From: Paludibacteraceae bacterium
GTDB taxonomy: Bacteria > Bacteroidota > Bacteroidia > Bacteroidales > Paludibacteraceae
Direction of reading: 5' to 3'
Length of the DNA: 64,000 nt
Assembly: GCA_017503075.1 (NCBI GenBank)
Contig: JAFVTU010000003.1
Coordinates: 62,001 to 126,000 of the forward strand
Shown: one piece after another, positions 15,582-42,637 of the stretch
How the letters are laid out: each line of letters opens with the position of its first letter
Numbering within the stretch: position 1 is the first letter of the stretch
Program-made: the position numbers and the translations under genes
Notes under the pieces: model-generated
Told to the model about the DNA's origin: nothing
The model's input: only the letters and a program-made list of their open reading frames with translations
Database searches by the model: none

Positions 15582-15582
15582 G

Positions 15583-16536: not shown

Positions 16537-16562
16537 AATTCTGTGCTTTTTATTTCCGTCTG

Positions 16563-22116: not shown

Positions 22117-22148
22117 TTGCGCGTGTAAAAAAAAATGGTTACCTTTGC
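22117..22148 (+). promoter_or_regulatory. Promoter of the kinase-murQ-sus operon
   Basis: TACCTTTG at 22141-22148 with CTTG at 22117-22120 (20-base spacer). The start codon is at 22208, so the leader is about 55 bases. No second clear promoter was seen before susC. Confidence 0.65.
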
Positions 22149-22207: not shown

Positions 22208-23065
22208 ATGATTTTAATTGCAGATTCAGGTTCAACCAAAACTCATTGGTGTTTGATGGCGGCTAACGGCCATAGCAGTGAGTATTTCACGGATGGTATT
22301 AATCCGTTTCAGCAGACATCTGATGCTATCAAAAACAGCGTGAATAATCAGTTGTTGCCAAAGATGGCTGGCGAGATGTGGGCTGGTAAGATTACCAATG
22401 TTTATTTTTATGGCGCAGGTTGTACTCCGGAGAAAATACCTGTGGTAGTGTATGCATTGGAAGATATTTTCAAGGATGCTAAAATAGAGGTGTATTCTGA
22501 TATGGTAGGTGCAGCTTGTGGTTTGCTGGGTGAAGAGAAAGGTGTTGCTTGTATTTTGGGTACGGGTGCTAACTCTTGTTTGTGGAATGGTAAGGAGATT
22601 GAGAAGAATGTACCTGCATTGGGCTTTATCCTTGGTGATGAGGGTAGTGGTGCGGTGTTGGGTAAACGCCTTGTGGCTGATCTCTTGAAGAATCAATTGA
22701 GCGACGAACTTAAGGATAAGTTCTTGACTCAATATGGTATTACTGCTGCAGATGTGATTGAAAATGTGTATCGCAAACCTTTCCCTAATCGTTACTTAGC
22801 CTCGTTGAGCAAATTCTGCTCAGAAAACATGGATAACCCATTGATAGCACAGCTCGTTTACGATCACTTTGATTATTTTGCAAAGCGTATATTGCCTCAA
22901 TATCCAGCATTGCCTGTTGGCTTTATTGGTTCGATTGCATACTATTATCAAGATGTGCTGAAGAAAGTGCTCGCAGACAATGGTTTTGCGGTGGGCAAAA
23001 TCTTGCAAGGTCCTATGGAGGGTTTGAAGGAGTATCATAAGAAAGATGTGGTTCCTACAATGTAA
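22208..23065 (+). CDS. BadF/BcrA-type amino-sugar kinase (GlcNAc/MurNAc kinase)
   Basis: Phosphorylates an amino sugar with ATP in the cytoplasm. The N-terminus MILIADSGSTKTHWCLM is the first phosphate-binding loop of the ASKHA fold; GTGANSCLWNG and LGDEGSGAVLGK are the second phosphate loop and the sugar/adenosine elements, as in the BadF/BadG/BcrA family. It is 285 residues from the ATG at 22208; the open frame upstream lies on the promoter. Related kinases act on GlcNAc or MurNAc (MurK of Clostridium acetobutylicum and Tannerella, from memory). Because murQ follows after 23 bases, MurNAc is a likely substrate, giving MurNAc-6-phosphate for MurQ. Confidence 0.88.
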   Translation: MILIADSGSTKTHWCLMAANGHSSEYFTDGINPFQQTSDAIKNSVNNQLLPKMAGEMWAGKITNVYFYGAGCTPEKIPVVVYALEDIFKDAKIEVYSDMVGAACGLLGEEKGVACILGTGANSCLWNGKEIEKNVPALGFILGDEGSGAVLGKRLVADLLKNQLSDELKDKFLTQYGITAADVIENVYRKPFPNRYLASLSKFCSENMDNPLIAQLVYDHFDYFAKRILPQYPALPVGFIGSIAYYYQDVLKKVLADNGFAVGKILQGPMEGLKEYHKKDVVPTM

Positions 23066-23088
23066 TTCATAATTCAAAGTTTTTTATT

Positions 23089-23907
23089 ATGGCTTTTACA
23101 AAAGTAACTGAGCAAAGTTCGCTTCATGACAATTTAGATCAGAAGTCGGTAGGCGAGTTGTTGCGCGAAATGAATGAGGAGGATCAAAAGGTAGCGTTGG
23201 CTGTCAAAGAGTGCATTCCTCAAATAGAAAAATTGGTAGAAGGTATTGTAGAGCGTATGAAACAAGGCGGTCGTATCTTCTATATGGGTGCTGGTACTAG
23301 TGGTCGTTTGGGTGTGTTGGATGCTAGTGAGATACCTCCTACATTTGGTATGCCGCCATCATTTGTGATTGGTTTGATTGCTGGCGGTGATCATGCGTTG
23401 CGTAATCCTGTGGAGAATGCGGAAGATGATCCAGAGAAATCTTGGAAAGAACTCCTTGAACATGATATTACTCCACTTGATACAGTGGTGGGTATTGCGG
23501 CTTCGGGTACGACACCTTATGTAATAGGCGCGCTCGAGCGCGCACGTGAGTTTGGCTGCTTGACGGCTTCTGTGTCCTGTAATCCTGGTTCGCCTGTAGG
23601 TCAAGTGGCTGAGATTGCCATTGAACCATTGGTGGGCCCTGAGTTTGTGACAGGTTCTACTCGGCTCAAATCTGGTACAGCGCAAAAACTAGTTTGTAAT
23701 ATGATCACTACTATTACTATGATCAAGATGGGTCGCGTAAAAGGTAATAAGATGGTAAATATGCAACTCTCAAACAAGAAACTCGTTGACCGCGGTACAC
23801 GTATGTTGGTGGACGAACTTGGTTTGGAGTATGATAAGGCAAAAGACCTGCTGCTCTTGCATGGTAGTGTGAAGAAGGCAATGGATGCTTATCGTGAGAA
23901 GCAATAA
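23089..23907 (+). CDS. murQ: N-acetylmuramic acid 6-phosphate etherase
   Basis: Cleaves the lactyl ether of MurNAc-6-phosphate to GlcNAc-6-phosphate and D-lactate, the key step of peptidoglycan-sugar reuse. It is a SIS-fold protein of 272 residues. The diagnostic block GAGTSGRLGVLDASEIPPTF contains the catalytic Glu, and is followed by GLIAGGDHALRNPVENAEDD, GIAASGTTPYVIGALERARE, SCNPGSPVGQVAE and the sugar-binding GSTRLKSGTAQKLVCNM. All family marks are intact. It sits between the sugar kinase and the SusC gene (40 bases before it) and links import to metabolism in this locus. Confidence 0.96.
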   Translation: MAFTKVTEQSSLHDNLDQKSVGELLREMNEEDQKVALAVKECIPQIEKLVEGIVERMKQGGRIFYMGAGTSGRLGVLDASEIPPTFGMPPSFVIGLIAGGDHALRNPVENAEDDPEKSWKELLEHDITPLDTVVGIAASGTTPYVIGALERAREFGCLTASVSCNPGSPVGQVAEIAIEPLVGPEFVTGSTRLKSGTAQKLVCNMITTITMIKMGRVKGNKMVNMQLSNKKLVDRGTRMLVDELGLEYDKAKDLLLLHGSVKKAMDAYREKQ

Positions 23908-23947
23908 AATAATTAAACGGAATATTATTAATTAATATCTGATATTT

Positions 23948-26900
23948 ATGAAGAAAATACTCTTTGTTCTGGCCTGCACGATGTTATCAGTTGCTATGAT
24001 GGCAAGTATAACTGTGACAGGTACAGTAATTTCAGCAGAAGATGGATTGCCAGTAATTGGTGCTTCTGTATTGGAAAAAGGAACATCAAATGGTACAATT
24101 ACTGACTTTGATGGTATTTATGAGTTGACAGTGGCTGATGACGCTGTCTTGGTATTTAGTTATGTGGGTTTAACCTCACAAGAACTAAAGGTTTCTGGTC
24201 CTAAGATGGATGTAACCCTCAAAGGTGATGCCATTGCTATGGAAGAAGTGGTGGTAACCGCAATGGGTGTGGTTCAAGAGAAAAAACGCTTGAACTTTGC
24301 TGTACAAAACATTGGGGGTGACGCACTTACGGAAAATAAGAGTTCCAACTTTGTGAACTCATTACAAGGTAAAATTGCAGGTGTATCTGTGACCAATGCA
24401 GGTGGTTCTCCTAACTCTGGTAGTCAGATTATTATCCGTGGTATTTCTTCTGTAAATACTAGCCAAAGTAACGAGCCATTGTTTATCTTAGATGGTGTGG
24501 CTATTAGTGGTGGTGGTTCTACAGCTGCTGATATCAACCCTAACGATATTGAGAATATCACCGTGTTGAAGGGTGCAGCTGCGGCTGCTCTGTATGGTCA
24601 GGATGCTGCCAATGGTGTCATCATGATTACTACAAAGCAAGGTGAAAAGGGTAAGATCAAGGTGCAAGCTAATGGTAGCTGGCAATGGGATCAGGCTACA
24701 CGTCTACCAAAGTTACAACAGACCTATGGTCCTGGTGCTCAAGGGTTCTACAAGGATAAGACCTCTGGCGGTTGGGGACCTCTATTAGGTAAAGATGATG
24801 TGATATATGATAATATTGGAAATTTCTTTAAGACTGGTTTCTATCACAAGTATGACTTCTCGGTGAATGGTGGTAGTGAGAAATTCCAAGCGTATGCTTC
24901 TGCTAACTGGTCTAATGCTGAAGGTATTATCCCTGAGGATTATAAGACACGTTTCGGTGCATTAATCAAAGCTTCGTTTACTCCTGCAGAATGGGTAACA
25001 TTCCAAATGGGTATCAATATCACAGATACTAAATCTCGCTCTACCAGTGGTGTAAGTTCTGTATATGGCTGGCCTATCAATAATGATATTACAGATTATA
25101 AACATGAAAATGGTCTTCCATCTCATCGCTATTGGGCTGATGGAGACAAAACGGCTTCTCCTCAAAGTCCTCTTTATAGTATCTATGAGGATGATGGTGT
25201 CGCAAAGAAAACTCGTAATGTGATTAATGGTAGTGTTACCTTTAAGCCAATTAAGAACTTGCAAATCGTAGGTCGTGTAAGTTATGATGTAAGCCACTCT
25301 TCATCTGATAGTTATACAGTGCCACGCTGGGATGACTCTAACTTGGTTACTGCTGTGTCTGCTCCTAAGGGCGATTTACCAGCAGATTATTCTACTCAAC
25401 CCGCAGGTACTTATCCAGATTGGGATAAATATTATGAGTATTTGACTTGGAAGTCTTCTACTTCAGCAGATCAAGTATTCCCATTGTTGGGCTTAGTTGG
25501 TGGATATATGCATCCTGACAACTATTTGTTGACCACTGAGGATAAAGAAAATATGAGTAAATCATCTTTAGGTGCATACTCTGCATCTATGAGCCGTAGC
25601 CAACTCTTTACTGCAGGTGCTAACATTACTTACAAGGTAGAGTTGCCAAAAGATTTCTCTATTGACTTGATGGCAGGTACTGAATTGAAGATGTCAGAGG
25701 GCTATTCTACATCTGCATATGGTGTTGACTTTATTATCCCAGGTACATATAGTCTGTCTAATACCAATCGTGAATATATGGAGTTGTCCGATCGTACCGC
25801 TGGTCATAGTATGGTTCGCCGTTTTGGTTACTTCGGTGAGATTCGTGGTGATTACAAGGGATTGGCGTCCCTCTCTGTTACAGGTCGCTGGGACTGGTCT
25901 TCTACCATCAACAACAATCCATTCTTCTATCCATCTGTAACGGGTGGTGTGATTTTGTCAGAGTTGATTCCTGGCTTGAATGAAACGAAGAATAACTGGT
26001 TCTCTTATTGGAAGATTCGTGGTAACTACGCGGTAGTTGGTAAGGATGCTCCTGCATTCCTCTATGACCGTCGATTCAAGCAATTTGGTACTTATCCTGA
26101 TGGTGGTTATGGTATAGACCCTACTATGTCTTCTGCTTCGCGTGATCTCCAACCTGAGATGTCTTATTCTTGGGAGATAGGTATGGATATTAAGTTCTTT
26201 GACAACAAGACTCGACTTGATGTGGCGTACTACAACACAAAGGTGGACAACCAAATTGTTACTGTGCGTGTATCTCCATCGTCGGGATATATCCTCCAAA
26301 CTCGTAACGAGGGAGCTATCCGTAACCATGGTGTAGAATTTACATTGGATCAAGATGTCATTAAACGCAAGAACTTTAATTGGACTTTGGGGCTCAACTT
26401 CGGTCTCAACCGTGGTACAGTAGTTAGCTTGCCAGAAGATGTGCATGAGATTACGGGTGCGCAGTATGGTGATATCTTTACTTCTGCTTACCTTGGCGGT
26501 TCTACTACTGCGCTTACTGGTAAGGACTATCTACGCAACGCTGATGGTCAGGTGATTGTGGATGATAAGGGCTTCCCAAAGATCAATCCTAATAAGAATG
26601 AGTATATTGGTAACCGTGAAGCGAAGTTCCAAGCTGGCTTGAACAGTAGTATGAATATCTATGGTGTGCAACTCTCATTCCTATTTGACGGCCGTGTAGG
26701 TGGTGATGTGGTGAATGTGACGGGTCGTAACCTTATCGCTAGCGGTAATCACAGTATTCTTGAGAAGTACCGTGGCCGTCAAGTGGTATTCAATGGCGTA
26801 AAAGAGGTGCTGGATGAGAAGGGCAATGTGGTTTCTTATGAGCCAAACACTACTCCTATTACCCTCAACCAAACCAACATCATTAACTACTTCTATAATG

Positions 26901-27175
26901 TATCAACCAACTTTATTGAGGATGGTTCGTACTTGCGACTCAGTTATGTGACATTGGGTTATGACTTTGCTCAACTCATGAAGAATCAAAAAGTTCTTAA
27001 AGGTTTGAAACTCAACTTTACTTGCAACAATGTCTTCTTGCTGACTAAATATACTGGTACAGACCCTGTCTGCAACGCTTCTACATCTGCTAAGGGTACT
27101 GGTTCTGCAGGTATCGATAATAGCCCAGTGCCAAGTACACGTAGCTATAATATCAGCCTTTCGGCTTCCTTCTAA
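23948..27175 (+). CDS. SusC/RagA-type TonB-dependent outer-membrane transporter
   Basis: Imports an oligomeric ligand through the outer membrane. A signal peptide (MKKILFVLACTMLSVAMMA) is followed by a carboxypeptidase-regulatory-like domain (VTGTVISAEDGLPVIGASVL), a TonB box region (MEEVVVTAMG), a plug domain (KIAGVSVTNAGGSPNSGSQI, LYGQDAANGVIMITTKQG) and a beta-barrel ending in SYNISLSASF with a C-terminal Phe. It is 1075 residues, normal for SusC. Because it is placed directly behind a kinase and murQ, and ahead of glycan-strand enzymes, muropeptides or MurNAc-containing glycans are the predicted ligand (inference). TonB-like and ExbB/ExbD genes are elsewhere in the window. Confidence 0.95.
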   Translation: MKKILFVLACTMLSVAMMASITVTGTVISAEDGLPVIGASVLEKGTSNGTITDFDGIYELTVADDAVLVFSYVGLTSQELKVSGPKMDVTLKGDAIAMEEVVVTAMGVVQEKKRLNFAVQNIGGDALTENKSSNFVNSLQGKIAGVSVTNAGGSPNSGSQIIIRGISSVNTSQSNEPLFILDGVAISGGGSTAADINPNDIENITVLKGAAAAALYGQDAANGVIMITTKQGEKGKIKVQANGSWQWDQATRLPKLQQTYGPGAQGFYKDKTSGGWGPLLGKDDVIYDNIGNFFKTGFYHKYDFSVNGGSEKFQAYASANWSNAEGIIPEDYKTRFGALIKASFTPAEWVTFQMGINITDTKSRSTSGVSSVYGWPINNDITDYKHENGLPSHRYWADGDKTASPQSPLYSIYEDDGVAKKTRNVINGSVTFKPIKNLQIVGRVSYDVSHSSSDSYTVPRWDDSNLVTAVSAPKGDLPADYSTQPAGTYPDWDKYYEYLTWKSSTSADQVFPLLGLVGGYMHPDNYLLTTEDKENMSKSSLGAYSASMSRSQLFTAGANITYKVELPKDFSIDLMAGTELKMSEGYSTSAYGVDFIIPGTYSLSNTNREYMELSDRTAGHSMVRRFGYFGEIRGDYKGLASLSVTGRWDWSSTINNNPFFYPSVTGGVILSELIPGLNETKNNWFSYWKIRGNYAVVGKDAPAFLYDRRFKQFGTYPDGGYGIDPTMSSASRDLQPEMSYSWEIGMDIKFFDNKTRLDVAYYNTKVDNQIVTVRVSPSSGYILQTRNEGAIRNHGVEFTLDQDVIKRKNFNWTLGLNFGLNRGTVVSLPEDVHEITGAQYGDIFTSAYLGGSTTALTGKDYLRNADGQVIVDDKGFPKINPNKNEYIGNREAKFQAGLNSSMNIYGVQLSFLFDGRVGGDVVNVTGRNLIASGNHSILEKYRGRQVVFNGVKEVLDEKGNVVSYEPNTTPITLNQTNIINYFYNVSTNFIEDGSYLRLSYVTLGYDFAQLMKNQKVLKGLKLNFTCNNVFLLTKYTGTDPVCNASTSAKGTGSAGIDNSPVPSTRSYNISLSASF

Positions 27176-27196
27176 TCTAATATAATATTAAGGAAT

Positions 27197-29035
27197 ATGA
27201 AAAAGTTATTTATTATACCAGCTCTTCTTGGAGCAATGTTTTTGACAAGTTGCGAGGATTTCTTGGATATTAACAAGAGCAAGGATTCTGCGATTACTAC
27301 ATCTGTGGATCAGGTGTTGCCCGTAGCTACTTTCTATGCTTCGCAAATTTGCTATGACCATGCTGAATATGGTGTATATATGTGTCAGGCACTTACTACT
27401 ATGGGTAAGAGTCAAACAGGTAGTTATCCCTATAGTCAAGGTTGGGAGTTCCTTGGCGTAAACCGTCACCCAATGTGGCGTCGCCACTTCTATGACCTTG
27501 GTGCTAATATTCAAAAAATGAACGAATTGGCAGAGGCTAAGGGACATTACAATGCGATTTTGATTGGTCGTACAGTGATGCTTATGTCAACGATGTTGAC
27601 CACCGATGCTTTTGGTGATATGCCTCGTTCACAGGTATATCAAAGCAACTCTCCTAGATACGATACTCAGAAAGAAGTATATGAGTGGATGTTCCAAGAG
27701 GTAGATGAACTACTTGACTTGTATCAAGACCCCACTTGGACAAAAGCTACCTCCAATTTGCTGATTAATGACAGAATGGATCGTATCTACGGTGGCGATT
27801 TGAGCAAGTGGGAAACATTTTGTAAGGGTCTTAAGGCACGACTTTGGTTGCGTAAGTTGCCTAACTGGGAAAATAATCCTGCTGTTTGCCAAGAGATTAT
27901 TAAATTGGCTAACGATGCCCTCGCTAATTGGGTAGAACCGCGCTATAATTATCCTGGTGGTGTGACAGAGTCTAACTGCCCATGGGGACCATTTGCTCCA
28001 AAGATTAACTCTTGGGAGAGTCGTGATAATCGTCTTGATGAGTCGATCCCAACTACTTTCTTCTTGCATGGTATTTTGGGTAGTTATGACAATGTATATA
28101 ATATTGACCGTGGTCATGCGCTTGACCCACGAGCAACTCGCTTAATGGAAGCCCGTAAAAAAGACAATGCTGATGTGCCAATGCGTCACTTGGAAAGTAA
28201 TTATGGAACAACTACAGATGATGTGATTACTAACTATCCTGATCTGCTCACACAAAGTATTAAAACTAACCCATATACTTCCAATACAGGTTATATCCCA
28301 TTGATGACTACTGAGGAATTGATGTTTATCAAGGCAGAAGCTCAATATTGGGCTGGTGATATCAATGGAGCATATAATACTACGGTAGAAGCTACTAAAG
28401 AGAATATGAAACGTTATGGTATTACAGAGTCTTTGTTGATTGATAGTGATCCTACTAGTTACACGGGTGGTCCTTTGGATCAATATCATCGCTTCTTTAA
28501 TATCAAATTGCCAGGTGCGGGTAAGTTTACTATTGCCGACTTGATGCAACAGAAGTATGTGGCTATGTACCTCTTGCCAGAGCAATGGACGGATTTGCGC
28601 CGCTACAATTATAGTTCTTCTGAGAATGGTATCTCTTATGTGCATCCATCTGCAGGTCATGCTCCTGTCTATGTGTACGATGTGAAGAATGTGCACAATG
28701 GTAAAAATAATGTATTTAAGGATGACTCCGTAAACTTCAGGGCAGAATATTCATTGCATCGTCCATATAACCTCTATGAGGCATATTGGTGTCAACCTGA
28801 CGATTATGGTAAAAACGCGCCTCTATCACCCAACGCATGGGTAGCACGCCTTAATGCAGATACTGAGACTGAAACCAAGTACAATAAGAAGGAACTTGAT
28901 CGCATGGGTTACTATACCACCAATGCAGCGGGCGAGAAGATTCTGGATTATCGTATCTTGAAGAAACGCATGATTTGGGCACACAATACTTCTGGCAAAG
29001 CAATTTCTGCAGATCCAGATATTGCATGGAAATAA
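27197..29035 (+). CDS. SusD/RagB-type nutrient-binding lipoprotein
   Basis: Surface lid of the SusC transporter. The signal peptide MKKLFIIPALLGAMFLTSC has a lipobox and is followed by EDFLDINKSKDSAI, a typical SusD start. It has TPR-type helices and the C-terminal region LLPEQWTDLRRYNYSSSENG with the usual E(Q/R)W.DL.R element. At 612 residues it is on the long side and fits the SusD_RagB/SusD-like group. It lies 21 bases after SusC, as expected for a pair. Confidence 0.94.
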   Translation: MKKLFIIPALLGAMFLTSCEDFLDINKSKDSAITTSVDQVLPVATFYASQICYDHAEYGVYMCQALTTMGKSQTGSYPYSQGWEFLGVNRHPMWRRHFYDLGANIQKMNELAEAKGHYNAILIGRTVMLMSTMLTTDAFGDMPRSQVYQSNSPRYDTQKEVYEWMFQEVDELLDLYQDPTWTKATSNLLINDRMDRIYGGDLSKWETFCKGLKARLWLRKLPNWENNPAVCQEIIKLANDALANWVEPRYNYPGGVTESNCPWGPFAPKINSWESRDNRLDESIPTTFFLHGILGSYDNVYNIDRGHALDPRATRLMEARKKDNADVPMRHLESNYGTTTDDVITNYPDLLTQSIKTNPYTSNTGYIPLMTTEELMFIKAEAQYWAGDINGAYNTTVEATKENMKRYGITESLLIDSDPTSYTGGPLDQYHRFFNIKLPGAGKFTIADLMQQKYVAMYLLPEQWTDLRRYNYSSSENGISYVHPSAGHAPVYVYDVKNVHNGKNNVFKDDSVNFRAEYSLHRPYNLYEAYWCQPDDYGKNAPLSPNAWVARLNADTETETKYNKKELDRMGYYTTNAAGEKILDYRILKKRMIWAHNTSGKAISADPDIAWK

Positions 29036-29066
29036 TAATATTTTAGCATTATAAATTTTGAGTAAT

Positions 29067-30128
29067 ATGAAAACAATATTCAAAACTCTTGCACTAGGTC
29101 TGTTGCTATTGGCCGTAGCATCATGTGAGAAACATGATTTATTTGATGAGAATACAATTACGGGTGCTGTAGGACCAGAAGCATATTGGACTATTGAGAG
29201 TAGCATGATGAAAGCAGGCGAGACTATGGGATTCACCGGGCAGTACTATTCTACTGTGGCTGCTATTGATCACTCAGAAGTGTGGTATGATTTGTTTGAG
29301 AAAGAAGATAAAATCGTAACTGCTGCCGCTATTAAGTCCTTTACGTATAGTGTTTCATCGAGTACTGCTACACAAAAGCGCATCTTGCAAACGATTCAAT
29401 CGTATGAGCACTCAGAAGATTTATATAATGATTCTTTGCGCGCATTTGTAGTGGAAGGCAGATTCCCTGTTAGTAACACCTTGTCCCCAATTACATGGGT
29501 AAATCCTAAAGACACGGTTGGATTTACTAAAAACTTGCACGCTTATTTTGGCGAGAACTTTGCGAAAGAATTCAAAGATGGCTTGACACCTAAAATGAAT
29601 CCGACAGCAGACGAGAGACACTATGGTGCCTATATGGACATTATAAAAAGTATGAGCTTGTTAGGTGATACTATCATTACTCCTAATGGAGAAAAAATGC
29701 CTTATTTGCAATGGATTTCAGACTCTACTTTTAATGCAAATACTAACTCTTGGAATAGATATTTTAAACAGAATGATACTATTTGGAGTAAAGTTAATTT
29801 CGATACTTTGGACATGAAGGTTGATACTAATGCAACGAAAGTCAATATTGGTACTAACCGCGATCCAATAATTGTTGATACTGTGCTATATGATACTACT
29901 TATATTGTAAAACCTTTGGTGGATGATGTGATTTATGTATATCCCGAAATTCAACATGTAATTGATAGTATTTGGGAGAACCATGTTACTTTCTATGATT
30001 TGATTGATGGAGCAGAGGGTTACTCGGTTGATTTCAAGCGTGAGTACTATATCAATGCGGAGTTACGCATCTATGATGAGCATGGTAATTATAGTGCGAC
30101 AGATGCTAAGCAAATTAACATTAACTAA
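29067..30128 (+). CDS. Putative surface glycan-binding lipoprotein
   Basis: The start is the ATG at 29067; the frame is open from a TTG at 29058, but the ATG gives a clean signal peptide with lipobox (MKTIFKTLALGLLLLAVASC). The mature part (about 335 residues) is acidic and rich in Thr, Asp and Tyr. I recognise no family. The order SusC-SusD-lipoprotein-lipoprotein is typical of polysaccharide utilisation loci, where the genes in this position encode SusE/SusF-like surface binding proteins, so a role in holding the substrate is likely. It lies 31 bases after SusD. Confidence 0.75.
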   Translation: MKTIFKTLALGLLLLAVASCEKHDLFDENTITGAVGPEAYWTIESSMMKAGETMGFTGQYYSTVAAIDHSEVWYDLFEKEDKIVTAAAIKSFTYSVSSSTATQKRILQTIQSYEHSEDLYNDSLRAFVVEGRFPVSNTLSPITWVNPKDTVGFTKNLHAYFGENFAKEFKDGLTPKMNPTADERHYGAYMDIIKSMSLLGDTIITPNGEKMPYLQWISDSTFNANTNSWNRYFKQNDTIWSKVNFDTLDMKVDTNATKVNIGTNRDPIIVDTVLYDTTYIVKPLVDDVIYVYPEIQHVIDSIWENHVTFYDLIDGAEGYSVDFKREYYINAELRIYDEHGNYSATDAKQININ

Positions 30129-30158
30129 TAAGGTCTAATTTTGATAATACACAAGAAT

Positions 30159-34438: not shown

Positions 34439-34481
34439 CCGTACAATAACCACACAATAACCGCACAATAACCGCACAATA
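34427..34481 (+). repeat. Five tandem 11-base units at the GHL10 gene end
   Basis: Units of the form ACCGCACAATA (positions 34427, 34438, 34449, 34460, 34471) in exact 11-base register. The stop codon of the GHL10 gene lies at the junction of units one and two. The last two units are identical. Confidence 0.88.
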
Positions 34482-34575
34482 AATACAATTTTTACTTAAC
34501 GCAACCGAGGTCCAACGTGGACGTGTCCACAAGGGATGAGGAAGCAATTTATTAACCAAAAAAAACAACAAATTT

Positions 34576-37038
34576 ATGAAAAGATTTTCAATCTTTTGCG
34601 CAGCTCTGTTTGTAGCTGCAACATCATTTGCTGCCGTTGCTTATGAACTTAACGGTGGTGTGACCAATGACGACAATTGGTTGAGCAAAGGTGACATGTG
34701 GACAGCTTTCTGCGCTGACGCTGGTATTACCACTTTGGGTACTCTAGAAGAGGTAAAGGCTCTGGGTGACCCTTACGCTGCAATCTGTACTCCTCTTGCC
34801 ACAGCTAATGCTCAGGCTATTCTTGACAATGCAAAATGGGACTGGCTCGAGGCTTACATCATGCAAGTTCAAAATGCTGACGCTGGTGCTTCTGCTCTTG
34901 TAGAGGGAACTTCTGGCGCAGGTTGGCGTTATGCTTTTGCTGCTTTCTTCTTGGAAGGTAAACGCGCTTCATGGCCTGTTTCTGCAGACTTCGCTGTCGC
35001 TGGTACTCCAGAGGCTTTCATCCCAGCTTGGAAACACGCTTTCGCTAACCCAACCGAGCCTACAGCTGAGTGGGTTTTGAACGCTCCTTACAAAGAGGGT
35101 TCTACTTTCGATGGTTGGTATGCTGCTGCTGACTTCTCTGGCGATAAAGTTGTTAAAATCGACGCTACTACCACTGGTACACTTTATGCGAAATGGGTAG
35201 AGTATATCCCAACTGTAGTTGAGGTTCGCGCTTTGGCTGACGATACCGAGACTAAAGTTTCTGGTGTGGTAAACCATGTTGATGGCAAAAACCTTTATAT
35301 TCAAGATGCTACTGGTGGTATTCTTGTTTACACAAGCGAGACTCCTTCTTGCAAAGTAGGTGAGAAGATTGTGGCTAAAGGTGTGAAAGTTATGTATAAG
35401 GGTGCTCCTGAAGTAAAGGATGCAGTTGTAGAATCTGCTGAGGCTGCTGAATTAGCAACATCAGTACCTTTTGAGAACTTGGCTGCTCTTGTTGGAGATT
35501 CACTTGAGTTGAAGTATTTTGCTACACGCGTAAGCGTTCCTGGTTTGAAGATTGTTTCTTACGACGACTATAAGAATCCAACTGTGAAGGATAATCTTGG
35601 TAATGAGGCAAAATGCTACAAGATGTCTCTTAACCCTGATGAGGCTCCTGTAGGTTCTAAAATTACTGTTAATGCAGTTGCTGGCTGGTTCAATGGTTTC
35701 CAATTTGTAGGTGATGTAGCTGGTTTGAAAGTTGTGCCAGGTCCTAAGAAAGATGCATTTGAATATCCAACTCGTCATAACAGTAGTCATAGCTATACTT
35801 TGACCAACAACTGGGTGGTTTCTAATGTGTTAGACAATTTCGCAGGTAACAAACCTGGAGCAAATGACTATGTTCGCGGTATGGCTGCAAGAGACGGTGT
35901 TATGTACTTCATCAACCGTGAGTTGGGCGCAATTGTTCCTGTAAATGGTGAAACTGGTGAGATGTTGGATCCTATCGTACTTAAAGGTGAGCACCTCTTC
36001 CAAAAGGTTACTGCTACTGATTCTGTTACTGGTGAGCAAACTTGGGGTGCAGCTACTACTCTTCCATTCAACGATATTAAGTTTGACCAAGCTGGTAACT
36101 GCTTGATTGGTGCTTGTGTATCTGCTGCTACTTCTTGCCAACCATTCTTTATCTATATCGTAGATCTTGCTACTGGTGAGGCTAAAGAACTTATCAACGA
36201 TGTTCTTTGGGAGAATACAGGTTTGAATGGTGCGACATTCCGTTTCGATGCATTCGGTGTTGCAGGTGATGTAACCAAGAATGGTGTAGTGATGGCTGCT
36301 GATGCTAACGACGGCTGGAAGGTTTATCGTTGGTTGATTATCGATGGCGTAGCTGGCGAAGGTCAGCAAATTGCATGTTCGTTAGATCCTGCTGTTGATG
36401 AATCACTCTACGTTAACGCTGCTGGTCTCGGTACTGCTCCTCAAATCTTCCCTCAAGATGAAGAAGGAAAACTCTTCTATGTGGACGGCTTCAATACTTT
36501 GCCTATGTTGTTCTACGGAGAGCCAGAAACAGGTGCTATGTTGTTTGATGACTTTATCCATGTAAATAGTGGCGTAAAAGTATGGAATAATGAAGGTGAC
36601 ACAATCAGCATGAATGCGAACTTCAACGGTCTTGTTGAGTTCCAAGTTGGTGAAGAGTATTTCCTCTTGATGGCTGCTACTAACAACACTCACAGTATTC
36701 CTACTTCTTATGCGCTCTTCAAGTTTGCTGATGCAGACCGTGCATTTGAAGGTATGGAGCCATTATGGTACTTCCCTAAAAACGGACTTGGTGCAGAAAC
36801 TATCGGTTGCCGTACATCCGTTCCTTCTGTGGATGTAGTTAGCGATACAGAGGCTACTCTCTACCTCTATGCTACCAACAACGGTTATGCAACTTACACC
36901 TTCACTGTAGGTGAACCTTCTGCTGTAGAAAATGTAGAGGCTGTTAAGGTAGAAGCTAAGAAAGTAGTTGAAAACGGTCAAGTTTACATCCTCAAGAACG
37001 GCGTTAAATACAACGTTCTCGGTGCTGAGGTAAAATAA
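34576..37038 (+). CDS. Large secreted multi-domain protein with the shared C-terminal tag
   Basis: 820 residues, function unknown. The signal peptide is MKRFSIFCAALFVAATSFAA. About residues 171-212 form a Listeria/Bacteroides-type (InlB B) repeat (YKEGSTFDGWYAAADFSGDK, TLYAKW). Residues about 215-390 look like OB-fold/DUF5689-type modules (VSGVVNHVDGKNLYIQDATG). From about 400 on it resembles a beta-propeller (MAARDGVMYFINRELGAIVP, VRGMA, MAADANDGWKVYRW) of the DUF4623 kind. It ends VYILKNGVKYNVLGAEVK, the same tag as its three neighbours. It is Ala/Val-rich with little Cys. No catalytic motif was seen, so adhesion or ligand binding is the most likely role. It lies 137 bases behind the GHL10 gene, and a terminator follows. 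Confidence 0.8.
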   Translation: MKRFSIFCAALFVAATSFAAVAYELNGGVTNDDNWLSKGDMWTAFCADAGITTLGTLEEVKALGDPYAAICTPLATANAQAILDNAKWDWLEAYIMQVQNADAGASALVEGTSGAGWRYAFAAFFLEGKRASWPVSADFAVAGTPEAFIPAWKHAFANPTEPTAEWVLNAPYKEGSTFDGWYAAADFSGDKVVKIDATTTGTLYAKWVEYIPTVVEVRALADDTETKVSGVVNHVDGKNLYIQDATGGILVYTSETPSCKVGEKIVAKGVKVMYKGAPEVKDAVVESAEAAELATSVPFENLAALVGDSLELKYFATRVSVPGLKIVSYDDYKNPTVKDNLGNEAKCYKMSLNPDEAPVGSKITVNAVAGWFNGFQFVGDVAGLKVVPGPKKDAFEYPTRHNSSHSYTLTNNWVVSNVLDNFAGNKPGANDYVRGMAARDGVMYFINRELGAIVPVNGETGEMLDPIVLKGEHLFQKVTATDSVTGEQTWGAATTLPFNDIKFDQAGNCLIGACVSAATSCQPFFIYIVDLATGEAKELINDVLWENTGLNGATFRFDAFGVAGDVTKNGVVMAADANDGWKVYRWLIIDGVAGEGQQIACSLDPAVDESLYVNAAGLGTAPQIFPQDEEGKLFYVDGFNTLPMLFYGEPETGAMLFDDFIHVNSGVKVWNNEGDTISMNANFNGLVEFQVGEEYFLLMAATNNTHSIPTSYALFKFADADRAFEGMEPLWYFPKNGLGAETIGCRTSVPSVDVVSDTEATLYLYATNNGYATYTFTVGEPSAVENVEAVKVEAKKVVENGQVYILKNGVKYNVLGAEVK

Positions 37039-37053
37039 TCAGACTATCCAATT

Positions 37054-37105
37054 AATCTAGAATATCTAGAACCTCTAGACCATCTAGTCAATCTAGATAA
37101 TCTAC
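37054..37105 (+). repeat. ATCTAGA tandem repeat between stop codon and terminator
   Basis: Six degenerate units of 8-10 bases (ATCTAGA/CTCTAGA core) with five CTAG tetramers in about 50 bases. It lies directly between the stop at 37038 and the hairpin at 37112. Confidence 0.8.
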
Positions 37106-37111
37106 CTTTCC

Positions 37112-37144
37112 AGAGTGTGTCCTTCGGGGCACACTCTTTTTTGA
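37112..37144 (+). terminator. UUCG-loop terminator closing the kinase-to-820-aa-protein unit
   Basis: Stem AGAGTGTGTCC / GGGCACACTCT with a TTCG tetraloop and a T-run after it. It is the first strong terminator after the promoter at 22117-22148. Confidence 0.9.
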
Positions 37145-37202
37145 TGCTATCAAGACTATTTAGAATCTATTTTACAAAATATTTCATTTTTTTTTGCAAT
37201 CG

Positions 37203-37233
37203 TTTGTGTATGTCAAAAAAAAGTAGTAACTTT
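37203..37233 (+). promoter_or_regulatory. Promoter of the NAGPA-amidase unit
   Basis: TTTG at 37203-37206 and TAACTTTG at 37226-37233, with a 19-base spacer. The ATG is at 37262, so the leader is about 22 bases. Confidence 0.78.
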
Positions 37234-37261
37234 GCAGGTCAAATCATAAAATTATAATACC

Positions 37262-39553
37262 ATGAAAAAAGTTCTACTGAGTTTATTTAGTTTATTGTGT
37301 GCAGTGTATTCGTTTGCTATTTCATTGAATGGTATAGAATATACGATTGATACGTTGTCGATGTATCCTGCTGGTCCTGGTACTATGTATTATGAACTAC
37401 GTATGCTTCGTGCGGATAAAGTAAATGGGCGTTTGGATGTTTTTTTGTTGAAGGTGGATACCCGTGATCCATATGTACAGGTTCAGCAAGTATTGGGTAA
37501 GGGTAAGGTGACTGGGTGTGAAACGCCTTCTAGTATGGCAAAGCGTAGTACTACTGACAATGATATATACTTTGCTGGCGTAAATGGTGATTTTTTTGCC
37601 TATGAAGCTCCTGTGGGGACAACCATTGTGGACAACCAGTTTGCGCTGACTCCTGCAGGTTCTGGCGGAGGCCGCCGTCATGCAGGTATTGATGCAGACG
37701 GTAGAGGCGTGACTGCTTATACACATACGTATTCCATGACGGTAACAACGCCTGCGGATACTACTCTCACTATCCATCATGTAAATGACTTCCGTGATGA
37801 AAATCAGTTAGTGCTCTTCAACCATCATTTGGGTACAACTACTGGTTCGAATGCATACGGAACAGAGTTGAAAATTCAATTGCTAGATGGCGAAAAGTGG
37901 CAAACTACAGGTACGATGAAGGCCAAGGTCTTGGCTAAAGAAGAAAATGTAGGTTCAATGCCTCTTGCTGCAGGTTATGCTGTGTTGTCTGGACATGGGT
38001 CGATGCAAAAAGAGTTGAATAAGCTGAATGTGGGTGATGAGATACTTCTCACCTTTGAAATGCGCTTAGATGATGAAATAGTTAATGTGGCGCAGATGAT
38101 AGGCGGTGACCATTATTCTGCCATGATTCTAGATGATGGCGAGATTGCACAATCTGGTTTCTGGAACGAGTTGCACCCCCGTACAGGTTTTGGTGTGTCA
38201 CAAACTCGTGATACCGTGATGATGATCGTGGTAGATGGGCGTGGCGTAAGTTTCGGTTGTACAACTAAAGTGATGGCAGAGATATTGAAGCATTATGGTG
38301 CTTGGAATGCGGTTAACTGGGATGGTGGTGGTAGCTCATGTCTCTACATTCGTCCGTTTGATCAAATGAATAATGGCTCAGATGGCAAGGAGCGCGCCGT
38401 TACCAATGCGATGTTTGCGGTGGCGCATGTGCCAGAGGTGGATAATACTATAGTTGCTATTGCTCCATATATGCCGAACTATTATTTGCCTCGTTATGGC
38501 GTGGCAGCACCACAGTTTTTGGGATACAATAAGTATGGCGTATTGGTAGAAACCAATGTGTCGGGCGTCCAACTCTCTTGTGACCCAGAGGTGGGTGAAA
38601 TCCTTGAGGATGGGCGTTTCTTGGCGTCGGGTGAAAAGGGAGGTAGATTAGTGGCTACTTGGGGAGAGGTACAAACAGAATTGGATGTTCGGATATCTTC
38701 TACAGCTCCTATTGCTATACGTATGGATACTGTCTTATGTGGCCCACAACCTTATAAAATAGAAGTCGAGGGTACTGTTGGTAATAACACTGTTGAAATT
38801 CTATCTAGTGCATTAGATTGGACTTCTGCTGATCCTTCTATTGCGACTGTGGACGAAGAGGGTAGGGTTGTTGCTGTTAGCAATGGTATTGTAGTGGTTA
38901 CTGGAAAATTAGGTACATTCACTGATCAAATCGCAATCAAAGTGGAAATCCCAGAGTCTAATCCTTTGATTTGGGATGATTTTCGTGAGGTTAGCTCGTG
39001 GAAAGTGGAAAGCTATCCAACTTCGTTTAATCCTTCTTTGTCAGTACCAGAGGAGTCAAGTGCTCCAACTAACTTGCTGTTTACTTATGGATCAGGGCGT
39101 ACTCCTTTTGTTCAATTATCTAAGGATTCTCTTCTGTATTCTACTCCCGATAAAATACGTATTCCTATGACAACTAATGCAGTTTTTGAAAAAGTTGTTG
39201 TTATGATTCGTGCTAACAATGCAAATACTACGGAGCAAATCACTTTCTTGAATCCTAAGGTGGGTGAGGAGAATATATTGGAGATAGATGTGAAAGAAAC
39301 GTTTGGAGCAGATGCTGCTATTTATCCGTTACATTTTATGTCCATTAAAATGATCCCCACAAAGGAGACACAAAAGGGCGAATGCTATGTGACTTTACCT
39401 GGTATTATAGAGGTATTCTCAAATGAAGCAACAGATGTGGAAAATGTGCCAACAGCCCACCCCGCTACTCCTATGAAATATGTGAAAGATGCTGCACTCT
39501 ATATTGAGTCAGCAGATAAGACATATAATGTGTTAGGTTCGCAAATTAAATAA
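37262..39553 (+). CDS. Secreted phosphodiester glycosidase (NAGPA family) with Ig-like domains and C-terminal tag
   Basis: The signal peptide (MKKVLLSLFSLLCAVYSFA) is followed by a NAGPA domain at about residues 90-385: GVNGDFF, HPRTGFGVSQTRDTVMMIVV, DGRGVSFGCTTKVMAEIL and the diagnostic AVNWDGGGSSCLYIR. This family removes GlcNAc held by a phosphodiester, as in the mammalian uncovering enzyme; bacterial members are proposed to act on cell-wall polymers. A Big_2-like Ig domain follows (TVDEEGRVVAVSNGIVVVTG), then a beta-rich part and a tag ending LYIESADKTYNVLGSQIK. It is 763 residues. It forms a two-gene unit with the amidase (14 bases downstream). The real substrate is unknown. Confidence 0.9.
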   Translation: MKKVLLSLFSLLCAVYSFAISLNGIEYTIDTLSMYPAGPGTMYYELRMLRADKVNGRLDVFLLKVDTRDPYVQVQQVLGKGKVTGCETPSSMAKRSTTDNDIYFAGVNGDFFAYEAPVGTTIVDNQFALTPAGSGGGRRHAGIDADGRGVTAYTHTYSMTVTTPADTTLTIHHVNDFRDENQLVLFNHHLGTTTGSNAYGTELKIQLLDGEKWQTTGTMKAKVLAKEENVGSMPLAAGYAVLSGHGSMQKELNKLNVGDEILLTFEMRLDDEIVNVAQMIGGDHYSAMILDDGEIAQSGFWNELHPRTGFGVSQTRDTVMMIVVDGRGVSFGCTTKVMAEILKHYGAWNAVNWDGGGSSCLYIRPFDQMNNGSDGKERAVTNAMFAVAHVPEVDNTIVAIAPYMPNYYLPRYGVAAPQFLGYNKYGVLVETNVSGVQLSCDPEVGEILEDGRFLASGEKGGRLVATWGEVQTELDVRISSTAPIAIRMDTVLCGPQPYKIEVEGTVGNNTVEILSSALDWTSADPSIATVDEEGRVVAVSNGIVVVTGKLGTFTDQIAIKVEIPESNPLIWDDFREVSSWKVESYPTSFNPSLSVPEESSAPTNLLFTYGSGRTPFVQLSKDSLLYSTPDKIRIPMTTNAVFEKVVVMIRANNANTTEQITFLNPKVGEENILEIDVKETFGADAAIYPLHFMSIKMIPTKETQKGECYVTLPGIIEVFSNEATDVENVPTAHPATPMKYVKDAALYIESADKTYNVLGSQIK

Positions 39554-39567
39554 TAAATATAAATCTA

Positions 39568-42500
39568 ATGAATATGAAAAAAGTATCTTTATTTCTGTTG
39601 GGAATTTCGCTTGCCTTGGTGGGCAATGCAGAGATTCGCGTACTTAGCAATGTGAAATTGGGTGAAGGGTTCTTCCCACGTTTTGCTGATGCTGAAACGG
39701 TTACTTATCTCAAAGCTGAAAACGCTAGTTATCTGACAACTACTGTAGATGACAATGCTGTGCTTCGTGTAGATAACGAGAACCTTGATCTCAACCTTTA
39801 TCGCAATGGCGAGAAGGTGGTATTGAAACCTCATGGTGATGCTAACTATATTTGGGCATCGTTGTCTCCAGACCAAACAATGATTCTCTTCAATACCAAG
39901 TTTGGTACCGCAGTATGCGACCTTAACGGTAAGGAGATTATCAATGTGGGTAATGTCAATGCGCCTGTATGGTATGGCAACGACTATATCGTGGGTATGA
40001 ACGACCAACATGATGGCTATTATTTCACTTCCTCCAATATCGTTATCGCTTCTGTGGACGGTATGGAGCGTCAAGAGTTGACTGATGCTAAGGAAATGGG
40101 ATACTATCCTGATGTGGATGCTAAGTCTGGTCGTATTGTATATCATACCGAGAAAGGTCAAATCCGTTTGATGCAATTGAGTTTGACAGAAGAGCCTATT
40201 CGCAAACAAATGCCCCGTTTAGTACAACAGTTGGATGGCACTTTGCTCAATAATATGAAGCGCCAAGCGAAACGTGCTGCGTCTAACAATCCTGCGGATT
40301 ACAAGATTTATATCAACCCAGGTCACGGTGGCTACGATTCTGACGACCGCTTGATGTATCTTTATCCTATTTTTATCAATCAAAATGTGCAAGACGGATA
40401 TACCCGCGAACAAAGTTTCTGGGAGAGTGTTTCCAACTTGGACAAAGGTATGCGTCTCGACACCATGCTTCGTGCACTTGGCTTCCAAACCAAAATGTCG
40501 CGTATTACCAACACAACGGCTGATGACCGTAGTCTTTCTGGTATTTCTGCTGAAGCAAGTAATTGGAATGCTGACTTTATGCTCTCTATTCACTCGAACG
40601 CAGGTAACCCATCTAACTATATTCTGCAATTGCACTCAGGTATTACGCCTGGTGACCCATATGGCTTGAATGGCTATCCAGAGAAAGTGCCAGAGTGGGT
40701 TTGCAACGAGGCACGCAAGATTACCACATTGATGGGTAATAACCAATATTCTAACCAAGTTTCTTGCTGGTCACGCGAACCAAATATCGCTGGTGATAAG
40801 ACCTTCGCTCGTACCATCATGGGTTGGAGCAATGGTTATGGTGTAATGCGTAACTTGAAAGTGCCTGGTACAATCTCTGAGGGTATGATGCACGACTATT
40901 TGCCAGAGACCTATCGTTTGATGAATATCGACTACAAACGTCAAGAGTCATTCCAATTTGCAAAGACCTTCTATACCTACTTCTGCAATGGCGAATTGCC
41001 ATATGGTGCTATTGGTGGTCGCATTCATGATGTTTATCAAAAGCAAGAGTTCCCTAATTACAAGCCTCGCAAGGGTACTCGCGACGAGTATCGTCCTATC
41101 CTCCGCGGTTTGGTAGAGTTGTGGCAAGGTGACCAATTGTTGGATACATACGTTACAGATACATTGTATAATGGTGTATATTACTTCTGGAACCTCCAAC
41201 CAGGTACTTATACTGTGAAGGCAAAGCCTGAGGGGTATTATCCACAAGAGCAAACCTTCGAGGTGAAGAATAATGAGATTTCTTACGGAATCTTTGCCCT
41301 TTCAATGGCTCGCGAAACACCTCCTGAGGTGATTGACTATAGTCCAAAAGTAGAGATCACAGATAGTGTACTCGTTTCTACCCAAGTAACCTTTACTTTC
41401 AACTGGGATATGGAGACTGAGGCTACTGCAGCTGCGTTGGAGATCTCTCCTGCTGTAGAAGGTACGATTACTTTTGAAAACGACAACCATTTGATGCGTT
41501 TTACTCCTGCTAAGCGTTTTGAGCCAGGTATAGAATATACCATTACGCTGGGTACAGGTGCTTGCCACCCAGATACCGCTTATGAGAACCATTTGAAAGA
41601 GCCATTCTCTTTCAAGTTCCGCACACAAATGCGTGGTAACTTGAAACTCGTACAATCTTATCCAGTAGATGGCGCTGCGGATGTTCCTGTAGATGCTGCA
41701 TTTATCACTATCTTTGATGGCAAATTGGCTAACTCTGCCAACAAGTACTTTAAGGTATATGATGCAGCTGGCAATGATATTAGCCCAGTATCTCGTAATG
41801 TGAAATTGAATGGTGTAGCTCCAGAACCTTATGGATCAGCAAGATTTGAGTTAAAGGCAGGTACATTGAAACCAAATTCTGACTATAAGATGGTGATTGG
41901 TGCTGAGGTATCAGATGTGAATGGTGTGATTGTAAATGATCCTATCACTGTTGCTTTCCGTACAGGTGATGAGGTAGAGTCATCGTTGCCTATCCTTAAT
42001 AACTTGGATAGCTTGTTCTTTGAGGGTGATAAAGAGACATCTACGGGTGTGGCGTCTGTATCTACCTTGCGTAATACTGCTTCTAAGTTCGAAGGTCTTG
42101 CATCTAATAAATTGACATACACCTTCTCAGAGGTGAATGGTGAAGCTGTTTATGTGGCAGATGATGTGACTGCTATTCAAGGTAATAGCCAATCTACATT
42201 TGGTTTGCATGTCTCAGCTGACTATTCATTCAATACTTTGTATGCGAAGTGGGCTGTAGAAGGTGATATCCAATATACCAAGATTTGTGATCTAGATTAT
42301 GCCGGATGGCTCTATCAAGAGGTTGATATGTCCACATTACCTGCAGGCGTCGATTATCAATTTATGGGCTTTAGATTAGTTCGTCAATCATCCTTCTTGT
42401 CTGGAAAAGGCGAGGTGAGCGTGGATGCGTTGCGTGTGGAATTTAAGCCATCTTCTACAGATGTAGAGAATGTAGTAACGGATCACGTAGTAAATCAAAA

Positions 42501-42576
42501 AGTAATTGAGAATGGTTATCTTCATATCCTGTTTAATGGTGTGAAATACAACGCTGAGGGCAAATTGATTAAGTAA
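39568..42576 (+). CDS. Secreted N-acetylmuramoyl-L-alanine amidase, 1002 aa, multi-domain, tagged
   Basis: Cuts the bond between MurNAc and the stem peptide. The signal peptide is MKKVSLFLLGISLALVGNAE (the ATG at 39574 is an alternative start). Residues about 25-220 form a TolB-like propeller part. The Amidase_3 domain has its zinc ligands: INPGHGGYDSDDR (His, residue ~252), SFWESVSNLDKG (Glu) and FMLSIHSNAGNPS (His, ~341). A carboxypeptidase-regulatory-like module follows (GVYYFWNLQPGTYTVKAKPE), then two Big_5 domains (TFTFNWDMETEATAAALEIS; YPVDGAADVPVDAAFITIF), a further beta domain, and a tag ending LHILFNGVKYNAEGKLIK. This is far larger than typical amidases. Products would be denuded glycan strands for the GHL10 enzyme. 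Confidence 0.92.
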   Translation: MNMKKVSLFLLGISLALVGNAEIRVLSNVKLGEGFFPRFADAETVTYLKAENASYLTTTVDDNAVLRVDNENLDLNLYRNGEKVVLKPHGDANYIWASLSPDQTMILFNTKFGTAVCDLNGKEIINVGNVNAPVWYGNDYIVGMNDQHDGYYFTSSNIVIASVDGMERQELTDAKEMGYYPDVDAKSGRIVYHTEKGQIRLMQLSLTEEPIRKQMPRLVQQLDGTLLNNMKRQAKRAASNNPADYKIYINPGHGGYDSDDRLMYLYPIFINQNVQDGYTREQSFWESVSNLDKGMRLDTMLRALGFQTKMSRITNTTADDRSLSGISAEASNWNADFMLSIHSNAGNPSNYILQLHSGITPGDPYGLNGYPEKVPEWVCNEARKITTLMGNNQYSNQVSCWSREPNIAGDKTFARTIMGWSNGYGVMRNLKVPGTISEGMMHDYLPETYRLMNIDYKRQESFQFAKTFYTYFCNGELPYGAIGGRIHDVYQKQEFPNYKPRKGTRDEYRPILRGLVELWQGDQLLDTYVTDTLYNGVYYFWNLQPGTYTVKAKPEGYYPQEQTFEVKNNEISYGIFALSMARETPPEVIDYSPKVEITDSVLVSTQVTFTFNWDMETEATAAALEISPAVEGTITFENDNHLMRFTPAKRFEPGIEYTITLGTGACHPDTAYENHLKEPFSFKFRTQMRGNLKLVQSYPVDGAADVPVDAAFITIFDGKLANSANKYFKVYDAAGNDISPVSRNVKLNGVAPEPYGSARFELKAGTLKPNSDYKMVIGAEVSDVNGVIVNDPITVAFRTGDEVESSLPILNNLDSLFFEGDKETSTGVASVSTLRNTASKFEGLASNKLTYTFSEVNGEAVYVADDVTAIQGNSQSTFGLHVSADYSFNTLYAKWAVEGDIQYTKICDLDYAGWLYQEVDMSTLPAGVDYQFMGFRLVRQSSFLSGKGEVSVDALRVEFKPSSTDVENVVTDHVVNQKVIENGYLHILFNGVKYNAEGKLIK

Positions 42577-42601: not shown

Positions 42602-42637
42602 AGAGAGTGCATCGGGCTTCTGGTGCACTCTCTTTTT
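42602..42637 (+). terminator. Terminator after the amidase gene
   Basis: A 10-bp stem (AGAGAGTGCA / TGCACTCTCT) with a 12-base loop that can pair further, then TTTTT. It ends the NAGPA-amidase unit before the secA promoter. Confidence 0.85.

Follow-up and report, generated by a model that had tools for sequence, protein, structure and literature searches.

A probable SusCD-type utilisation locus for peptidoglycan in a Paludibacteraceae bacterium that probably lacks its own N-acetylmuramic acid synthesis

We analysed a stretch of 64,000 nucleotides from a Paludibacteraceae bacterium (GenBank assembly GCA_017503075.1, contig JAFVTU010000003.1, positions 62,001 to 126,000; hereafter the window), which carries a 20-kb locus that an original prediction had described as a peptidoglycan-harvesting SusCD-type locus. 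The genome it belongs to comprises 2.06 Mb in 30 contigs and is 99.55% complete and 5.49% contaminated. Each of the ten named genes lies on the plus strand at the position claimed for it, between 22208 and 42576 (Table 1), with gaps of no more than 40 bases among the first seven, from the kinase through the GHL10 glycosidase. The prediction treated these genes as one locus; their content stands, but hairpins and promoter-type boxes indicate that they probably form two transcription units, one running from the kinase to the exported protein p820 and the other made up of nagpa and the amidase gene. The kinase start at 22208 fits: the box at 22140 falls within a longer open reading frame (ORF) that begins at 22103. 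At the other end, a further promoter-type box at 42692, with the hairpin at 42602-42633, sets the locus apart from secA, the next gene in the window.

Table 1 Features of the locus and of the upstream cluster, in window coordinates.
Feature	Position	Strand	Evidence
SpoIID/LytB-type protein, probable associated wall enzyme	11774..12964	-	PF08486 92.5 bits; TIGR02669 184.6 bits, cut-off 83.3; association putative
DUF4922 protein, associated upstream cluster	17380..18411	-	PF16269 160 bits
GT2-domain protein, associated upstream cluster	18398..19822	-	PF00535 72.4 bits
Glucosamine-6-phosphate deaminase-like protein with PIG-L domain, divergent from kinase	19955..21946	-	NF002557 983 bits, cut-off 384; PF02585
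Promoter-type box TANNTTTGC, unit 1	22140..22148	+	32 boxes in window against 14 expected by shuffling; function putative
Murein-sugar kinase, MurK type	22208..23065	+	Best solved relatives 1zxo, 1zbs, 8oqw (Tannerella MurK, 284.6 bits)
MurQ, N-acetylmuramic acid-6-phosphate etherase	23089..23907	+	TIGR00274 318.6 bits, cut-off 302; motifs
SusC, TonB-dependent outer-membrane importer	23948..27175	+	TIGR04056 612 bits, cut-off 368
SusD-like lipoprotein	27197..29035	+	PF12771 80.7 bits, cut-off 27; lipobox-like LTSC
Lipoprotein without Pfam family (lp356), kept in module	29067..30128	+	Lipobox-like VASC; 58/58 loci with at least 6 kb downstream
PKD-domain lipoprotein, kept in module	30159..31892	+	PF18911 46.1 bits; 58/58 loci with at least 6 kb downstream
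Long GHL10 glycan-strand cleaving enzyme, C-terminal tail	31892..34438	+	PF02638 225 bits, cut-off 27.9; 54/58 loci with at least 6 kb downstream
p820, exported protein without catalytic family, probably binding; C-terminal tail	34576..37038	+	Only a List_Bact_rpt stretch; tail
Hairpin then T run, probable terminator of unit 1	37112..37137	+	Sequence
Promoter-type box, unit 2	37227..37235	+	Box scan
NAGPA phosphodiester glycosidase, Ig-like stretch, C-terminal tail	37262..39553	+	PF09992 76.8 bits, passes cut-off; 3ohg best solved match
N-acetylmuramoyl-L-alanine amidase (Amidase_3), Big_5 domains, C-terminal tail	39568..42576	+	PF01520 35.4 bits, passes cut-off
Hairpin then T run, probable terminator of unit 2	42602..42633	+	Sequence

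The first gene had been called a BadF-type amino-sugar kinase. It does encode a sugar kinase, but the BadF match is weak (22.2 bits, below the cut-off of 31.5), and Tannerella MurK is among the closest solved sequences. The alignment with Tannerella MurK covers its length and keeps D98, N122 and D144. Small residues, P136-A137-L138 and S97, stand at the MurK positions S133-P134-L135 and T94, where N-acetylmuramic acid (MurNAc) needs room according to passages of the MurK paper, whose authors also state there that sequence analysis cannot identify MurNAc binding (PMC10465942). MurQ passes its family cut-off, and by sequence a putative MurNAc kinase of the MurK type stands with MurQ.

SusC and SusD lie in tandem and pass their cut-offs as well, and the cysteines of SusD and the two predicted surface lipoproteins are lipobox-like. 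By pattern match only, such a cysteine is present in 96 of 106, 100 of 100 and 95 of 99 fetched relatives of SusD and the two lipoproteins, respectively, a pool that holds some genomes twice. The first lipoprotein has no significant Pfam or PDB match. When both lipoproteins were compared by sequence and by profile with solved accessory proteins, nothing beyond PKD domains or noise came up. The 820-residue protein, p820, is present as predicted and has no catalytic family, but its role in binding is only probable. It is the most length-variable protein of the locus, with relatives of ~450 to ~1,500 residues (L037, L038, L059, L062, L064, L073, L091).

The three remaining proteins are predicted wall enzymes, and all bear out their earlier assignments. 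The GHL10 match lies far above its cut-off. E. coli DigH belongs to the same family. Bare strands are given as the substrate of DigH in passages of PMC12288456, and the best solved match of the GHL10 profile is Cwp19 (350 bits), a peptidoglycan-degrading enzyme described in parts of PMC6016235 as a lytic transglycosylase. Residues Q78, W128, R133, D196-D197-Y198, Q308 and Y310 are invariant in 15 rows, and we paired them with Cwp19 active-site residues named in parts of PMC5765458 by motif, not by structure. Extra GHL10 copies were seen beside the module in L135 (9432-11384), L115 (17103-19793) and L125 (3404-6778); in L125 one copy has a dockerin domain and another a dockerin-like end (by eye), replacing the sorting domain. 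NAGPA keeps HPRT, VDGR and DGGGS, which we take to be the catalytic motifs, and HPR[TS] is found in 39 of 41 long relatives from the same pool with duplicates. In the amidase, H253, E286, H342 and E438, presumably functional residues, are invariant in 10 rows.

GHL10, p820, NAGPA and the amidase share one C-terminal tail, which the original prediction had overlooked. A model of this tail has 47 matches across the genome, of which the locus accounts for 4; in all 20 sampled from the other 43, the match ends within 4 residues of the stop codon. The canonical sorting domain of the type IX secretion system (T9SS), TIGR04183, is matched at E 0.001 by 23 of 43 GHL10 orthologues; these were chosen from 61 complete ones as the 45 least like that of the window, after removal of two from L125 whose ends are dockerin-like. 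The genome also holds 11 canonical T9SS domains over the cut-off and SprA (2664 bits), the T9SS part that was searched. We infer from this that the T9SS signal takes a local form in this tail, and because the tail looks like such a signal, the four proteins probably act outside the cell. Two tail matches on contig C13 of G000 have equal-scoring counterparts on C29 with near-identical spacing (~15.3 kb), and other contig pairs also show equal scores, which suggests duplicated or doubly assembled stretches in this metagenome-assembled genome (MAG).

A search for the same gene set in other Bacteroidales had been proposed as a check, and the module does recur. The SusD clade is found in 15 of 61 genomes of the genus, our own included, the others at 43 to 77% identity. 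Of the 15 stretches that we fetched, 14 come from other genomes, and in all 14 susC, susD, the two lipoprotein genes and GHL10 follow in order; the kinase gene and murQ stand directly upstream of susC in 12, the exceptions being L044 and L045. All nine loci that were fetched further downstream have the amidase gene there. In 7 of them it stands beside nagpa; the other 2 (L130, L132) have no nagpa, and the amidase gene comes immediately behind p820. Beyond the genus, a species-genome collection scanned with a SusD alignment gave 206 relatives. The best 80 of these were taken as loci, and all beyond-genus locus counts come from them; some are the genus loci again under public names, and the sets L032-L046 and L047-L126 partly overlap (identical contigs, different names). 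Downstream genes were counted in the 58 loci with at least 6 kb downstream and upstream genes in the 54 with at least 9 kb upstream. All 58 loci have both lipoproteins and 54 of them have GHL10, compared to murQ in 34 of 54 (and the kinase in 31), and thus SusC, SusD, the two lipoproteins and GHL10 are the stable core. By family, murQ accompanies the module in 23 of 26 Paludibacteraceae, 2 of 2 Dysgonomonadaceae, 9 of 17 loci whose records name no family, and none of 9 from Barnesiellaceae (2), Porphyromonadaceae (1), Muribaculaceae (5) and Prevotellaceae (1), so that the murQ link is strongest near Paludibacteraceae. Among the best 80 of 206, the named SusD sequences closest to ours come from Paludibacteraceae MAGs, one of buffalo gut (82% best-segment identity) and one of cattle gut (78%), which makes it very likely that our bacterium is of this family. 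Two records not labelled as MAGs, Barnesiella sp. An22 and An55, which we take to be cultured isolates, also have the module.

We considered a complete second locus in our own genome (L040) and rejected it, since it has SusD and a fused protein of the two lipoprotein types without SusC. Two other genes separate these paralogues from the genes for an SSF symporter and NamZ, ~3 kb away, a proximity that we treat as weak evidence only. Their N-termini (L040:7606-12392) have a different leader.

The association with murQ is also seen at the level of whole genomes. We compared 150 genomes drawn evenly from the family, our own included, using Fisher tests whose p values ignore shared ancestry; 40 have murQ and 25 the SusD clade. 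murQ is present in 24 of the 25 SusD-positive genomes compared to 16 of 125 SusD-negative ones (p=3.6e-16), and counted by genus in 9 of 9 compared to 1 of 24 (p=2.6e-7). In 14 of the 25, SusD and murQ are 3.1 to 3.8 kb apart on the same strand; in the other 11, murQ is on the same strand 10 kb away in one and 33 kb away in another, 149 kb away in one, on a different contig in 7 (some at contig ends), and absent in one. The original prediction had allowed that kinase-murQ might sit beside SusCD by accident. This is contradicted by the co-occurrence and by the adjacency, and we reject it.

Several relatives carry further candidate salvage genes next to the module. In the locus of Paludibacter sp. 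47-17 (L071 and L146, one contig), murQ is followed by genes for a NagX-like protein (126 bits, cut-off 480), a NamZ-like protein, an FAD/FeS protein and a second GHL10, and then by the module. The FAD/FeS protein is of the D-2-hydroxyacid dehydrogenase kind, its GlcD and YdiJ matches being below the cut-offs, and would fit the locus because the MurQ reaction releases D-lactate. L180 has a NamZ-like gene and an AmpG-type permease gene (148 bits, cut-off 350) upstream. In three relatives from Dysgonamonadaceae and Ca. Symbiothrix (L074, L078, L102), presumably of termite origin, the gene directly upstream of susC encodes an AmpG-type MFS permease (178.6, 153.6 and 146.6 bits, cut-off 350), and murQ lies close by on the opposite strand. 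All permease and epimerase matches of the relatives are below the NCBIfam cut-offs. The NamZ-like calls in L146 and L180 each score 161 bits to the NamZ of our own genome, which itself matches PF07075 (250.6 bits) and PF20732. In that genome such genes lie outside the window: C28 has those for the SSF symporter and this NamZ, C30 one for another NamZ, and C5 one for an AmpG-like protein (156 bits, cut-off 350). Scanned flanks of several Muribaculaceae-type loci held housekeeping genes and no recognised peptidoglycan-salvage gene, and several other flanking ORFs of relatives are housekeeping or unrelated and count neither for nor against. In L058 (5589-6701) a GDSL/GxDLY esterase gene, possibly for a wall de-acetylase, lies between murQ and susC, and an ORF of similar size is found there in L059 and L060.

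MurA starts MurNAc synthesis. A search for MurA (TIGR01072) gave no candidate in our own genome, while all 14 control searches were positive, 10 of them over the cut-off, and the family search agrees. Among the 150 family genomes, 20 have no MurA at E 1e-50: 11 of the 25 SusD-positive genomes compared to 9 of the 125 SusD-negative ones (p=2e-5). In the genus of the window MurA is missing from 5 of 5 SusD-positive and 1 of 8 SusD-negative genomes, and in genus g15 from 3 of 3 and 0 of 6. Furthermore, among genomes with murQ it is missing in 10 of 24 with the module and in 0 of 16 without (p=0.003). Passages of PMC7670621 describe Tannerella as lacking MurA and MurB and living on exogenous MurNAc, a pattern that the gap in our genome appears to match. 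The bacterium is thus probably a MurNAc auxotroph, and because it seems to be without the gene that starts MurNAc synthesis, it may need the locus.

Four genes on the minus strand upstream of the kinase, for the deaminase-like, GT2, DUF4922 and SpoIID/LytB-type proteins, are probably parts of the same system. The SpoIID/LytB gene adjoins DUF4922-GT2 in L054, L058, L059 and L060. In the window a HaeIII-type restriction endonuclease gene (PF09556, 469 bits) and a C5 methylase gene (14574-16593) stand between the SpoIID gene and DUF4922, and this pair looks inserted, because the two genes adjoin each other in those relatives.

Taken together, we consider it probable that peptidoglycan is the target of this SusCD-type utilisation locus and that the bacterium does not make its own MurNAc. 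The predicted cell-wall substrate is supported because the SusD clade co-occurs with and adjoins murQ, and because some relatives carry other peptidoglycan-salvage genes beside it; the fragment carried by SusCD would then be peptidoglycan-derived. The original prediction left foreign and self walls open, and the evidence leans to foreign ones, because the enzymes are tailed and no MurA was found. We infer the following order of steps. The exported amidase would remove stem peptides from foreign wall, and the exported GHL10 would then cleave the glycan strands left bare. SusC would import the fragments, which SusD and the two lipoproteins, perhaps with p820, would hold. Periplasmic NamZ-type enzymes would release MurNAc, and the SSF symporter or the AmpG-like permease, likewise encoded elsewhere in the genome, would bring the sugar or a disaccharide inside. 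The MurK-type kinase would make MurNAc-6-phosphate and MurQ would convert this to N-acetylglucosamine (GlcNAc)-6-phosphate and lactate, with the deaminase-like protein acting downstream, and a share of the MurNAc would go into the cell's own wall.

A number of observations weigh against this interpretation. The SusD sequence does not reveal its ligand. murQ is missing upstream in 20 of the 54 loci (3 of 26 in Paludibacteraceae, 8 of the 17 whose records name no family, and all 9 from Muribaculaceae, Barnesiellaceae, Porphyromonadaceae and Prevotellaceae), and thus the kinase-murQ pair is not obligatory. GHL10 of some kind occurs in 144 of the 150 family genomes, with 6 in our own; we therefore dropped it as a marker of wall harvesting by itself, and only the long form at this place is telling. 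NAGPA is missing from the close loci L130, L132 and L044, and, since L130 and L132 do without it, is not essential to the module. None of the four tailed proteins of the window matches TIGR04183. As for MurA, 14 of the 25 SusD-positive genomes have kept it, and 6 of the 9 SusD-negative genomes without it are <85% complete. When presence and absence of MurA are mapped on a 25-row SusD tree, no fewer than 4 changes are required; two long branches and the join of genera g1 and g15 are uncertain in this tree.

The silence of SusD about its ligand and the relatives without murQ nearby would also suit a SusCD pair that serves a plant or host glycan, with kinase-murQ there by chance. We regard this as very improbable given the co-occurrence and adjacency statistics and the wall-salvage neighbours, and a Pfam scan of the ten genes (E 0.001) found no plant- or mucin-glycan hydrolase family. 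A different possibility is that SusCD imports the stem peptides freed by the amidase, which parts peptide from sugar, and that kinase-murQ handles sugars entering by another route. SusCD pairs that carry peptides are known, and L077 has, divergent from susC, genes for an NlpC/P60-SH3 protein and an epimerase of the L-Ala-D/L-Glu type, with no murQ in the 10 kb upstream; the epimerase best matches NF042940 (N-acetyl-D-Glu racemase DgcA; 204.8 bits, cut-off 400), followed by NF011708 (L-Ala-D/L-Glu epimerase; 137.6 bits, cut-off 343). However, the module keeps a GHL10 and not a peptidase, murQ is found beside it more often, and further loci have NamZ-like or AmpG-type genes, which makes stem-peptide import unlikely in our view.

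The exported enzymes could instead serve the bacterium's own wall, in cell separation or turnover, with SusCD recovering self fragments. According to passages of PMC12288456, cell separation in E. coli involves DigH and amidases, and secA follows the locus not only in the window but, directly or one gene further, in 6 of the 9 loci fetched downstream. The secretion-type tails, however, would place the enzymes outside the outer membrane, the genome has no MurA that we could find, and presence of the SusD clade in so few genomes of the genus (15 of 61) is unlike a housekeeping function. We therefore think this explanation quite improbable, and favour uptake of foreign peptidoglycan.

A bolder form of the foreign-wall interpretation seems doubtful to us, if conceivable: the module could be a general outer-membrane entry for foreign peptidoglycan in Bacteroidales, letting several gut lineages drop MurNAc synthesis, with NAGPA in an uncovering role. 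The teichoic acid of Gram-positive walls is attached to MurNAc via GlcNAc-alpha-1-phospho-6-MurNAc, and the human NAGPA-type enzyme cuts GlcNAc-1-phospho-6-mannose, a bond of the same type. By hypothesis, NAGPA would strip teichoic acid and leave MurNAc-6-phosphate, the substrate of MurQ. On NAGPA and teichoic acid, the passages of PMC11488536 and PMC12419801 that we found put the domain beside wall enzymes and do not contain a reaction unmasking MurNAc-6-phosphate.

The original prediction held that this is not a standard, named locus type, and in agreement with this we found no SusC/SusD locus for MurNAc, muropeptide or peptidoglycan in open-licence papers. What we describe appears to be a SusCD locus targeting peptidoglycan, joined to Tannerella-type MurNAc salvage. 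In the passages of the Tannerella literature available to us, the route of peptidoglycan fragments through the Bacteroidota outer membrane is undescribed, and the module names candidate parts for it; because it is also present in Barnesiella sp. An22 and An55, the question of outer-membrane uptake becomes testable. If the link to MurA holds, dependence on neighbours for MurNAc would span several genera of Paludibacteraceae-like gut bacteria. Their growth would be tied to the death of other bacteria, cultivation could be aided, and there would be an extra sink for wall fragments sensed by the host.

Like SusCD polysaccharide loci, the locus clusters a SusC-SusD pair and lipoproteins with degradative enzymes (GHL10, NAGPA, Amidase_3). 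Unlike them, its wall enzymes have a T9SS-like tail and its sugar steps are predicted to be murein-specific, and, unlike many of them, it has no regulator family among its ten genes in Pfam and NCBIfam scans, a regulator being common in such loci and not universal. The GHL10 catalytic domain is that of C. difficile Cwp19 and E. coli DigH, with the Cwp19 active-site positions kept by motif; in contrast to these enzymes, the protein in the window has ~850 residues, extra domains and a tail, and is placed behind a SusCD pair. The ykf genes of the B. subtilis type are stem-peptide genes, and a ykf-like epimerase and NlpC/P60-SH3 pair stands beside the module in L077 and not in the window.

A close parallel is with Tannerella forsythia, whose salvage operon Tanf_08345-08385 comprises, according to passages of PMC5388701, xanthan lyase, two gtf genes, lytB, ampG, ybbC, murT, murK and murQ. 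The window likewise has a MurK-type kinase with MurQ and, nearby, LytB/SpoIID and glycosyltransferase-type genes, and its genome has NamZ and symporter or AmpG-like genes and no MurA that was found. We take ybbC of the Tannerella operon to be NamZ; unlike there, NamZ and the transporters are encoded outside our locus, some of them standing near the module in L146, L180, L074, L078 and L102. The Tannerella cluster covers inner-membrane and cytoplasmic steps, and the passages that describe it name no outer-membrane importer, whereas the locus in the window has SusC, SusD, two lipoproteins and a probably exported GHL10, NAGPA and amidase beside kinase-murQ. We read it as what is probably the outer-membrane half of a Tannerella-type MurNAc salvage, aimed at foreign walls.

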